The notes beneath the pieces are model-generated. The model saw only the letters and a list, made by a program, of their open reading frames with translations. It was not told the DNA's origin and ran no database searches. Source: Nocardia acidivorans NBRC 108247 (GTDB taxonomy: Bacteria > Actinomycetota > Actinomycetes > Mycobacteriales > Mycobacteriaceae). Taken from it: 64,000 bases of DNA. Both the position numbers and the translations under genes were made by a program. The stretch's first letter is position 1. Every line of letters begins with the position of its first letter. Of this stretch, positions 25,787 to 28,303 are shown piece by piece. Location: positions 1 through 64,000 of the forward strand of contig NZ_BDAW01000013.1 of assembly GCF_001625085.1 (NCBI RefSeq), written 5' to 3'.

Positions 25787-26158
25787 TCAGACCTCCAGCT
25801 CCTCCTCGATGCCCCGGAGGCGGTGGCGGGCCATGGCGAGATTGGCGCGGCCGCGGTCCAAGGCGAGGTAGAGGAACAGACCCTTGGATTTGCGGCCGGT
25901 CATGGGCCGGATGATGTGGTACTGGTTGCCGAGGGTGATGAGAATGTCCTCGATATCCTCATTGATGCCGAGCTGTTCGATGGTGCGCATCTTGGCGCGC
26001 ACCACCTCGGTATTGCCGGCGGCGGCGACCTGCAGATCCAGCGCCTTGGAGCTGCCGAGCATGCCCAGCGCCATCCCGCTGTTGTAGTCGACCACGGCGG
26101 CGCCGACCGCGCCGTCGATCACCATCATGTCCTTCAGTGCGATATCCATGTTGGACAT
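25787..26158 (-). CDS. Roadblock/LC7-domain protein (third of three)
   Basis: A 123-residue single-domain protein. The fold starts with MDIALKDMMVIDGAVGAAVVD and ends in ANLAMARHRLRGIEEELEV. Hydrophobic strands alternate with helices as expected for MglB/LC7-type dimerising regulators of small GTPases. There are no catalytic residues and no membrane segment. An AAAGGAAAGG SD lies just before the ATG at 26158. It is the promoter-distal gene of a four-gene minus-strand operon; the gap to the gene before is 11 bases. Its last 20 residues resemble those of the first Roadblock protein, so the two are probably paralogues. Confidence 0.85.
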   Translation of the reverse strand: MSNMDIALKDMMVIDGAVGAAVVDYNSGMALGMLGSSKALDLQVAAAGNTEVVRAKMRTIEQLGINEDIEDILITLGNQYHIIRPMTGRKSKGLFLYLALDRGRANLAMARHRLRGIEEELEV

Positions 26159-26169
26159 GGCCTTTCCTT

Positions 26170-26652
26170 TCAATCGGTGTTCTTCTTCGGGGTGCGCTTG
26201 ACGTTGTTCGCCAAGGCGGTGAGTTCTTCGGCTATGGCCCGCGCGACCGGACGCGACTCCAGATGCAGGCGGCCCACATTCACCTCCGGACCCGCCAGCA
26301 CCGTCAGCGAGGCGGTCCAACCGGCCGCGTAGATGACCACGTATCCGCCGGAGCCGTGCACCACGACCTCGTGGAATCCGCCCCCGTGCGCGGTGGTGGC
26401 CAGCCGGTGCGAGAGCGAGAGCTGGGATGCGGTGAGCGCGGCCATCCCGGTGGGTTCGATATGCGGCGGCAGATCGTGTGCGATGAGCAGCCCGTCGGTC
26501 GAGGCCACCAGCGTTCCGGTCAGCCGGGGGATGCTCTCCCGCAGCGACTTCAGCTGAGTCACCAGCACGGTATTCGGTTCGGGTCGCGTGGTCGCCACCT
26601 TCGTCATCCTTCTTCCCATCATTTCGCCGAGCCGCCTCCTGCGCGCGGTCAC
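26170..26652 (-). CDS. Roadblock/LC7-domain protein (second of three)
   Basis: About 160 residues from the GTG at 26652, which has GGAGGAG five bases upstream; the ATG at 26607 is an alternative giving 145. The core has LVTQLKSLRESIPRLTGTLV, then ASTDGLLIAHDLPP, FHEVVVHGSGGYVVIYAAG and a long C-terminal helix with SRPVARAIAEELTALANN. This is the size and strand order of the Roadblock family found with actinobacterial conservons. The basic tail (KRTPKKNTD) is unusual. It sits between the winged-helix gene and the third Roadblock gene in the same operon. Confidence 0.82.
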   Translation of the reverse strand: MTARRRRLGEMMGRRMTKVATTRPEPNTVLVTQLKSLRESIPRLTGTLVASTDGLLIAHDLPPHIEPTGMAALTASQLSLSHRLATTAHGGGFHEVVVHGSGGYVVIYAAGWTASLTVLAGPEVNVGRLHLESRPVARAIAEELTALANNVKRTPKKNTD

Positions 26653-26749
26653 ACCAGCTCCTCCAAGGCCGCCTCCCAGTCCGTCCGCCGAATACCCTGC
26701 GCTCGTTCGAGCGCGGCCTCCGCACGGTCATGCCAGCTCCTCCAGTGCC
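26629..26749 (-). repeat. Direct repeat of a translation-start region (two ~42-base copies, 80 bases apart)
   Basis: Copies at 26629-26671 and 26709-26749 share GGAGGAGCTGG followed by an ATG or GTG and ACCG, then CGAGC at matching spacing. One copy gives the SD and GTG of the second Roadblock gene. The other overlaps the stop of the winged-helix gene and would start only a non-conserved frame. It looks like a small tandem duplication at an operon junction. Confidence 0.6.
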
Positions 26750-27585
26750 GCCCGCACCCGGACGAGCACCTCACGGTCGATGGGTTTCCAGCGTTCCGGC
26801 ACCGGAGTCGGTGTACCCGAACGTGTTCGGCGGCGGGGAAGCTGTGCGGGCGGACCGCCCGGACGCGGTAGCGCGATCAATTCCGCCACCTTCGATTCGT
26901 GCGCCTGTGGCGCGGGCATCGCGCGCGTCGCGGGCTCGGCCGCGTGTTTCGGTGCGCGAGCCGGTACCGGGGGTTCGATCAATCCGGCCGCGGTGAGCTC
27001 GCGGACCGCGGTGAGACAGCCGTAGGTGGTGCGGCCCAAATCATTCGCGATCACGGTGATGCTGCGCCGGGCATCGGCGGCGGCGAGCAGTTCGGCCTGC
27101 CCGCCGGTGAGTACGACCCGGCGGCGCGGAATACGGCGAGCCGGGACCACGGGGGCGCGATCGACCAGCGCCACCGGCCACGGCCCGGATTCGGGATCGC
27201 CACGGCGCGTGCACTCCCGCACCACGGCGGGCGGATCGATCCGGCAGATCGGGGCCAACCAGTGCGGCGGCGCGGGCCGGAATTCGGGGACCACCGGTTC
27301 GGCGAGCAGGAAATAGGCGGCATCGAAAACCGCGAGCAGCGCCAGGGTTTCGAGCTGCGGTCGGCGCAGCAGCGCACCGAACTCCCCGGACTCGGCCCGC
27401 CGCCACTCCTCTGGGGTCGCCACACCCGCCTCGACGACCAGTCGATCGAGTCCAGTAGTCCGGCGGCAATCGGCGCCGGCGATCGCACCCTCGGCGATAT
27501 GGAATGCGCCGTCCCCCGCGTGCAGCACCCCGGTGGAGCGCTCCGCCGCCAATCTCCGCAATTCACTTGCGAGTTCAGCGCTCAT
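26728..27585 (-). CDS. PATAN/DUF4388-like and winged-helix protein in the Roadblock operon
   Basis: A 285-residue soluble protein. The first 75 residues (ELASELRRLAAERSTGVLHA, then GAFHIAEGAIAGADC) look like the DUF4388/PATAN module, which in other bacteria accompanies signalling and Roadblock proteins. After a proline-rich linker, about 170-215 has a winged-helix pattern with SITVIANDLGRTTYGCLTAV and RELTAAGLIEPP. The rest is a basic, proline-rich region ending in REVLVRVRAALEELA. The start at 27585 overlaps the stop of the first Roadblock gene by 11 bases. Both domain assignments rest on pattern only. A role as the DNA- or partner-binding output of the Roadblock proteins is inferred from context. 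Confidence 0.7.
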   Translation of the reverse strand: MSAELASELRRLAAERSTGVLHAGDGAFHIAEGAIAGADCRRTTGLDRLVVEAGVATPEEWRRAESGEFGALLRRPQLETLALLAVFDAAYFLLAEPVVPEFRPAPPHWLAPICRIDPPAVVRECTRRGDPESGPWPVALVDRAPVVPARRIPRRRVVLTGGQAELLAAADARRSITVIANDLGRTTYGCLTAVRELTAAGLIEPPVPARAPKHAAEPATRAMPAPQAHESKVAELIALPRPGGPPAQLPRRRTRSGTPTPVPERWKPIDREVLVRVRAALEELA

Positions 27586-27967
27586 GACCGCCCTCGGTGA
27601 ATTCGGCCAGAATTCCACGCAGGCGGAATCGGGCCATACCAAGATTTCCGGTTTCGTCATCGAAGAGCACATGGACGAAGAGTCGCCCGTCGAAGTCCCC
27701 CTTGACGAGATTCAACAGGTGGTACCCGTGCGTCCCGCAGACGATGATCTCGGAGATGTCATCGTCGTCCCGGCCACTTGTCAGCGCCGGGCAACCGAGC
27801 ACCGCGCGCACCACATCGGTGCTAGCCGCGGCATCCTCATGCTGATCGAGAGGGTCCTGCCGCCCCGCCCCCGCTACCGCGAGCCCGCTGGCGCCATCCA
27901 CCAGCGTCACACTGCGCGCACCCGGAATATCCATGATCCGTTGCAGACAGCCGTCAATACCGATCAC
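27575..27967 (-). CDS. Roadblock/LC7-like protein (first of three)
   Basis: A 130-residue protein, first gene of the operon. It begins with IDGCLQRIMDIPGARSVTLV and DGASGLAVAGAG. The centre has ISEIIVCGTHGYHLLNLV, and it ends with GNLGMARFRLRGILAEF. The strand/helix order matches Roadblock/LC7 proteins, and the last segment parallels the end of the third Roadblock protein. No catalytic motif is visible. Upstream lies an A+T-richer gap with a palindrome, probably the operon promoter. No MglA/CvnD-type GTPase gene is found in the operon or beside it. Confidence 0.78.
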   Translation of the reverse strand: MIGIDGCLQRIMDIPGARSVTLVDGASGLAVAGAGRQDPLDQHEDAAASTDVVRAVLGCPALTSGRDDDDISEIIVCGTHGYHLLNLVKGDFDGRLFVHVLFDDETGNLGMARFRLRGILAEFTEGGHER

Positions 27968-28303
27968 TGCGTCACCGCTTTGTCAGATAAGCCTTTTCGA
28001 GTTCCAGACGCTACACACGCGCGACGCCGACCGTACGCCGATTGCGCGAGAATTACGGGCGGACAAAGAATTCGCCGCGTAAATCCGCGAAGAATACCTC
28101 CCGGTACTGAATACCCGCTGGTATCAACAACATTCGAAATGCAATATTCACTCGAATTGTTTGCTGAATCCACCCCGTCAGCAAACCTCACGCCGCCGGA
28201 CCGCCCACCTACCGACCGGCACAGGCAATAGTGATGTGCATGTGACTACGCGGGTGAAACGTCGAGAGGATTCCCGCGTGAGCGCATCGACGTCGGAGAG
28301 GGA
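27968..28303. other. 336-base gap: probable promoter of the Roadblock operon
   Basis: Clearly richer in A and T than its surroundings. GTTTGCTGA (28159-28167) and TCAGCAAAC (28178-28186) form a perfect 9-bp inverted repeat with a 10-base spacer, about 195 bases before the operon start. This may be an operator or a terminator. A weaker ACGCGGG/CCCGCGT pair (about 28250-28281) could end transcription of the gene at 28304. I see no gene here. Confidence 0.5.

Follow-up and report, generated by a model that had tools for sequence, protein, structure and literature searches.

A conserved operon of three Roadblock-type proteins and a PATAN-like winged-helix protein, without a GTPase gene, in Nocardia and other Actinobacteria

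Results

Gene Content, Order and Distribution

The window analyzed here, a stretch of 64,000 nucleotides from Nocardia acidivorans NBRC 108247, carries four open reading frames (A-B-C-D) on the minus strand at positions 25787-27967. Gene A (27575..27967; 130 amino acids, GTG start) encodes a Roadblock-like protein and paralogue of D; gene B (26728..27585; 285 amino acids) encodes a protein with a PATAN(DUF4388)-like N-terminus, a winged helix and a C-terminal helix; gene C (26170..26652; 160 amino acids) encodes a Robl_LC7 protein of an orphan clade apart from CvnB; and gene D (25787..26158; 123 amino acids) encodes a divergent, highly conserved Roadblock protein. The initial annotation, made from this DNA alone, had described an operon of three Roadblock proteins and one PATAN-winged-helix protein, and this description stands. 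Its "tight overlaps" apply to A and B, which overlap by 11 nt, but not to the remaining junctions, where B and C are separated by 75 nt and C and D by 11 nt. In most Nocardia relatives B and C overlap by 4 nt, in contrast to the gap in the window; four relatives have a gap of 81-87 nt, similar to the window. On reading the sequence, the B/C junction (26653-26731) looks tandem-duplicated in the window's clade, where the gap spans 75-87 nt.

Of the 60 genomes searched, 30 have B: 28 of the 36 from Nocardia and two from another family of the order. All 31 loci found with B contain A-B-C-D, complete and in the same order; the foursome, whose conservation the initial annotation had proposed to check, is a conserved unit. 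Since this order holds in all 31 loci and dN/dS, calculated in four pairs of genomes, lies between 0.06 and 0.35 for each of the four genes, indicating purifying selection, the four-gene unit is not a product of chance. Of the 80 named loci that were found with D, a scripted test recognized the full set in 73; the seven failing loci comprise L137, which has the full set and a partial second copy, L147 without B, L150 with A and D only, and four other D contexts (L161, L173, L174, L176). L137 is a tandem arrangement in Nocardia higoensis in which the second operon set is partial, and locus L061 has a second D; L147 (Nocardia vulneris) lacks B and L150 (Nocardia nova) lacks B and C, and both keep A and D. 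The named genera with the operon are Nocardia, Actinomadura, Thermomonospora, Actinoallomurus and Nonomuraea; A-B-C-D is also carried by a Streptomyces plasmid and recurs in another family of the order to which Nocardia belongs. D was found in 63 of 298 genomes when the order was searched and in 106 of 394 when the search covered the class. At E 1e-3, B had matches in 57 of 197 genomes of the class: 21 are strong, with E below 1e-20, and 36 are weaker; each of the 21 strong matches adjoins D. No further neighboring gene recurs around the operon in at least three other groups (eight groups compared), consistent with the earlier remark that it contains nothing else. A PADLOC search gave no match, and a reading as a defense system was dropped.

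The Roadblock Proteins A, C and D

The protein C matches the Pfam family Robl_LC7 (PF03259) at 52.6 bits and E 3.8e-14 (cut-off 23) and is, by this profile match, a true member of the Roadblock/LC7 superfamily. A and D alone had no relevant match in Pfam or NCBIfam, Robl_LC7 included, and only one of 63 members of the A/D family matched Robl_LC7, at 3e-4. A match between the profiles of A and D (hhalign 99.6%, E 1e-24) agrees with the suggested paralogy of the first and third Roadblock proteins. Structure prediction, proposed earlier as a check, recovered a Roadblock fold for D: the AlphaFold model (pLDDT 91.1) has the Roadblock topology a-bb-a-bbb-a and resembles MglB, LAMTOR proteins and archaeal Roadblocks (Foldseek best E 1.1e-6), with VIA-align Z scores of 15-17.2 to Roadblock/MglB/LAMTOR chains, the best (17.2) at an rmsd of 1.7 over 115 residues. 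The Roadblock fold is thereby predicted for D and, solely via homology to D, for A. A PDB sequence search with D found no match. Since comparing the profiles of A and D with that of C yielded nothing useful, A and D are tied to Roadblock proteins mainly by fold.

In a tree of 62 Roadblock rows, a 100/100 branch separates the C proteins of the foursome and of C-D pairs from all 32 CvnB rows together with two conservon-like orphans; the C branch is long and lies away from the CvnB rows. By this phylogeny, C forms a clade of its own, with an origin separate from conservon CvnB. The A/D tree (70 rows, based on a short alignment and including two very long rows) has a 100/100 branch that splits all D, including stand-alone D, from the A rows. 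D constitutes a broad family that is unannotated in the libraries used here (Pfam, NCBIfam). For C, A and D alike, the Nocardia rows cluster phylogenetically with Thermomonosporaceae rather than with the other family of the order to which they belong, which suggests that the history of the operon includes transfer.

Domain Structure of Protein B

Protein B consists of a PATAN-like region (residues ~1-125), a basic arm and winged helix (~150-208), a disordered linker, and a C-terminal helix (271-284). In its AlphaFold model (pLDDT 87), the N-terminal part is an alpha/beta fold, the winged-helix part exceeds pLDDT 90, the linker (231-244) falls below 50, and the C-terminal helix is confident. 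The proposed PATAN/DUF4388-like N-terminus was found again in part of the family, where DUF4388 (PATAN, PF14332) matched 15 of 60 B members (best E 7e-5), but not in the window's own B, which has no such match; two further B-type proteins reached 23.1 and 23.7 bits against DUF4388 (cut-off 25), and VIA-align with B did not place the PATAN part structurally. The predicted winged helix, likewise part of the initial annotation, emerges more clearly: VIA-align matches (Z 5-9, ~residues 130-216) are almost exclusively winged helices, and Pfam assigns HTH_47 to 42 and HTH_24 to 20 of the 60 B proteins. The window's B itself reaches an E of only 0.066 for HTH_47, and a PDB sequence search with B returned weak winged-helix matches only (E 0.34 and 1.6).

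The winged helix of B scores 34.5 against that of CvnC (DUF742), with 21.4 as the highest score of 100 column shuffles and an ArsR control of two sequences only; hhalign gives 75.7% for the two winged helices, and DUF742 matches three of 60 B members (best E 0.029). The C-terminal helix that follows the linker (LLxRLRAALEEL) resembles the CvnC tail. Other structural neighbors of the B winged helix, NPRL2 and PqqD, serve in other roles; given its closeness to the winged helices of CvnC, NPRL2 and PqqD, that of B may bind protein. A basic RRxRRRR arm precedes the winged helix in Nocardia and Thermomonosporaceae. The recognition helix reads GR[TS]x[YF]GCL in Nocardia and most Thermomonosporaceae, and GRxAFHTL in most Streptomyces-type rows.

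Upstream Elements

Upstream of A, the window contains an exact copy of a candidate operator, the palindrome ATACCnnnnGGTAT (28111..28124), whose presence ahead of A is conserved in Nocardia and Thermomonosporaceae, and 17 bp from it a second copy with one mismatch (28094..28107). An alignment of 17 Nocardia upstream regions revealed the conserved element TGTGTAGCGTC about 50 nt before A (in the window at 28007..28017, minus strand), which looks like an extended -10 promoter element, and further upstream repeats of AATACCnnnnGGTATT with a 17-bp period. The palindrome GGTATTnAATACC, tried first, represents the same repeat, read in a different register.

When up to one mismatch was allowed, ATACCnnnnGGTAT preceded A in 20 of 28 Nocardia loci (random windows 4/560), in 12 of 15 loci of Thermomonosporaceae plus one Nonomuraea (6/300), in two of four loci of the family f12 (1/80), and in none of six Streptomyces-type loci (0/120); with no mismatch, it occurred in 14 of 28 Nocardia loci and in 7 of 560 random windows, the control being 300-nt windows from the same loci, redrawn for each mismatch level. 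Among named loci with B and enough upstream sequence, 51 of 73 had the palindrome, with species overlapping the first set. The motif was derived from these same operons, and only its rarity elsewhere constitutes new information: exact full AATACCnnnnGGTATT sites number 10 in 36 genomes, all among the 22 Nocardia genomes, and eight of them lie ~90-160 nt before A, in six Nocardia genomes; the remaining two (in genomes G014 and G021) lie away from the operon.

The Streptomyces-type upstream regions have a different element, CCnnnGGAAAATGCCA, common to all seven in the alignment; no inverted repeat recurs across them. The label "Streptomyces-type" derives from a named Streptomyces plasmid locus (L243) with the same gene order and element. 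Genome-wide, 16 CCnnnGGAAAATGCCA sites were found in 18 Streptomyces-type genomes, 15 of them at the operon, against a single match for the reversed pattern. Six of these genomes had served to derive the element; of the 12 others, nine carry it at the operon, one carries it at a different place, and two lack it. The upstream elements are nearly private to the operon in two lineages. The recognition helix of B changes along with the upstream element between lineages, a correlation that follows phylogeny and amounts to one contrast, not many. The palindrome is missing at one mismatch from eight of 28 B-bearing Nocardia loci, and the B recognition helix is nearly unchanged in Nocardia loci of this kind; conversely, the N. 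vulneris locus keeps an exact operator copy while B is absent.

GTPases near the Operon and near D Relatives

Roadblock proteins are known as partners of small GTPases. No GTPase gene lies within the operon, neither an MglA gene as in Group-3 mgl loci nor a CvnD gene as in conservons. GTPase profile matches were obtained in three of 111 foursome or D loci (L053, L108, L111; the first two on the same contig), and in these the GTPase lies ~3 kb upstream with its own Roadblock, as a separate conservon-like pair; the reported lack of a GTPase and of conservon partners is therefore upheld for the operon itself. A search for unlinked GTPases, another check proposed at the outset, found seven conservon-type GTPases in the window's own genome, each beside another Roadblock gene; of the eight other PF03259 genes there, seven lie within 1.5 kb of a CvnD-type GTPase. 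One locus of the same genome (L006, contig C54) combines a conservon-type Roadblock with a DUF742-like gene and has no CvnD GTPase within 1.5 kb.

Among the plasmid matches, 15 regions were retrieved. Outside the Actinobacteria, 10 plasmid loci with D relatives were examined. An MglA-type GTPase and a Roadblock accompany D in two of them, both on proteobacterial plasmids; with the profiles used, the other eight have neither a GTPase nor a C-type Roadblock. The Agarilytica plasmid NZ_CP021746.1 (L239, 4001-6072) encodes D, a BLUF light-sensor protein, an MglA-type GTPase (87.7 bits) and a Roadblock, possibly a light-controlled GTPase module. The Acinetobacter wuhouensis plasmid NZ_CP033119.1 (L242, L246) encodes a GTPase (84.9 bits), a Roadblock, a 321-amino-acid protein and D; this plasmid is typed as conjugative, and its GTPase gene reaches the start of the record and is absent from the annotation.

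Discussion

Comparison with Described Roadblock Systems

The operon, carried by Nocardia and many further soil actinobacteria, looks like a variant of Roadblock/MglB signaling that is undescribed as far as could be searched; the literature covered, mostly open-access main text, yielded no account of it, in keeping with its initial designation as a candidate for an undescribed system. The Group-3 mgl loci of beta- and gamma-proteobacteria are reported to combine MglA with several MglB proteins and a winged-helix protein with a variable linker (PMC4316618, PMC11112851), for which a role in transcription regulation has been suggested (Wuichet and Sogaard-Andersen, 2015, PMC4316618; for Snodgrassella, PMC11112851). 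On these accounts, the actinobacterial operon resembles them in having at least two MglB-type genes (A, C, D) and a linker-joined winged-helix protein (B); it differs in lacking the MglA GTPase, and the scaffold N-terminus, predicted to be receiver-like in Group-3 mgl, is PATAN-like in B. The Acinetobacter plasmid locus, with its order GTPase-Roadblock-321-amino-acid protein-D, fits the Group-3 mgl plan as outlined there (PMC4316618), as does the Agarilytica locus. With conservons, also termed AGPS (CvnA-CvnB-CvnC-CvnD; PMC8510531, PMC13343842), as these sources present them, the operon shares a Roadblock accompanied by a protein that has both a winged and a C-terminal helix; unlike them, it has no kinase and no GTPase, its C belongs to a different clade, and it has two extra Roadblock paralogues and a PATAN part. 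In the absence of a GTPase gene the operon is neither a conservon nor a Group-3 mgl system. Yet the occurrence of D relatives beside MglA-type GTPases, and the combination of MglA, MglB and winged helix in Group-3 mgl, weaken the view that it is GTPase-free by nature.

An orphan clade of actinobacterial MglB proteins without flanking conservon genes has been reported (PMC4316618), and C is probably a member of it; the partners A, B and D and the operator go unmentioned in the sections of that paper that treat the clade. PATAN-domain genes adjoin MglB genes according to Makarova (2006), as cited in PMC4316618; the likeness lies in PATAN and Roadblock sharing one neighborhood, and the citing passage names no such operon. 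Finally, the Ragulator complex (LAMTOR1-5), in which one non-Roadblock protein holds several Roadblock subunits, may be similar in its way of working only; the D model matches LAMTOR chains, whereas lysosome and Rag GTPase have no counterpart here.

Proposed Function and Competing Explanations

The reading we prefer, at a probability of roughly 45%, is that the four proteins form one regulatory complex in which B serves as scaffold and as autoregulator at its own operator, with Roadblock occupancy setting its activity. The near-privacy of the elements in two lineages suggests a regulator encoded within the operon, and B, as the sole candidate encoded there, is likely to be this autoregulator. 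B would bind the palindromic operator found almost solely before its own operon and would thereby control that operon; the position of the operator upstream of the promoter-like element makes activation more plausible than repression, as a guess. The Roadblock proteins may dimerize, C with itself in the manner of MglB and, again as a guess, A with D; they could dock on the PATAN domain or on the tethered C-terminal helix of B, as LAMTOR1 holds Roadblock pairs, and their occupancy would set the activity of B. The Roadblock set might answer to an input other than a GTPase, or to an unlinked conservon-type GTPase. The earlier proposal that Roadblock dimer state is passed directly to a DNA-binding protein fares unevenly: the private elements do point to a dedicated DNA-binding protein, but a reading of dimer state by B is conjecture. 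As a caveat, the Nocardia loci that have B without the palindrome and the N. vulneris locus with the palindrome and no B count against operator binding by B; it also speaks against the model that a regulator having just one site in each genome would have nothing but itself to control.

A possible though doubtful alternative takes A, C and D as extra GAP/GEF-like partners that act on CvnD GTPases in trans, with B as a CvnC-like adaptor and autoregulator. The conservon-type GTPases beside seven of the eight other PF03259 genes, the Agarilytica and Acinetobacter operons, in which D relatives occur together with a Roadblock and an MglA-type GTPase, and the score of the B winged helix against CvnC, well above its shuffles, are what this explanation would lead one to expect; it is harder to reconcile with the long, fully supported separation of C from the CvnB rows and the conservon-like orphans, with the missing conservon neighborhood (the few GTPases lie ~3 kb upstream with a Roadblock of their own), and with the rarity of GTPases beside non-actinobacterial D. 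It is distinctly improbable that B does not bind DNA at all, its winged helix being a protein-interaction module while an unrelated regulator binds the upstream elements; the other roles of its structural neighbors and the mismatched occurrence of operator and B in Nocardia would suit this explanation, yet elements nearly private to the operon in two lineages are hard to attribute to an unrelated regulator, and the basic arm that Nocardia and Thermomonosporaceae have ahead of the winged helix also speaks for DNA binding. That the operon is a conservon remnant after loss of the kinase and GTPase genes, as its Roadblock and CvnC-like winged helix might suggest, is very unlikely and was set aside, since the set is conserved in many genera under purifying selection, C falls outside the CvnB clade, and the PATAN part and A/D are not conservon components.

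Under the preferred reading of a B-centered regulatory complex, a conserved bacterial Roadblock set without a GTPase in cis, with its own regulator and operator, would offer a clean test of stand-alone Roadblock function; as the operon occurs in Streptomyces, standard laboratory strains can be used to test it, with the private operator as a ready-made reporter. A broader proposal, tentative and on the whole unlikely in its entirety, is that the operon is a GTPase-free switch in which three Roadblocks directly gate a PATAN-winged-helix activator acting at its private operator, and that D represents a widespread, Pfam-invisible family in Actinobacteria, Proteobacteria, Deinococcus and Hymenobacter that may be plugged into GTPase, BLUF and DNA-binding partners. 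If true, the GTPase-free Roadblock switch would be a self-contained, self-amplifying regulatory unit.

Additional D Contexts

Relatives of D with 50-63% identity occur on five predicted viral contigs (L255-L259), where the profiles used detected no Roadblock C or GTPase nearby. At three further loci a stand-alone D is followed by an ArsR-type HTH gene, identified by Pfam HTH_5/HTH_20 in L183 and L203 and by annotation in L253.
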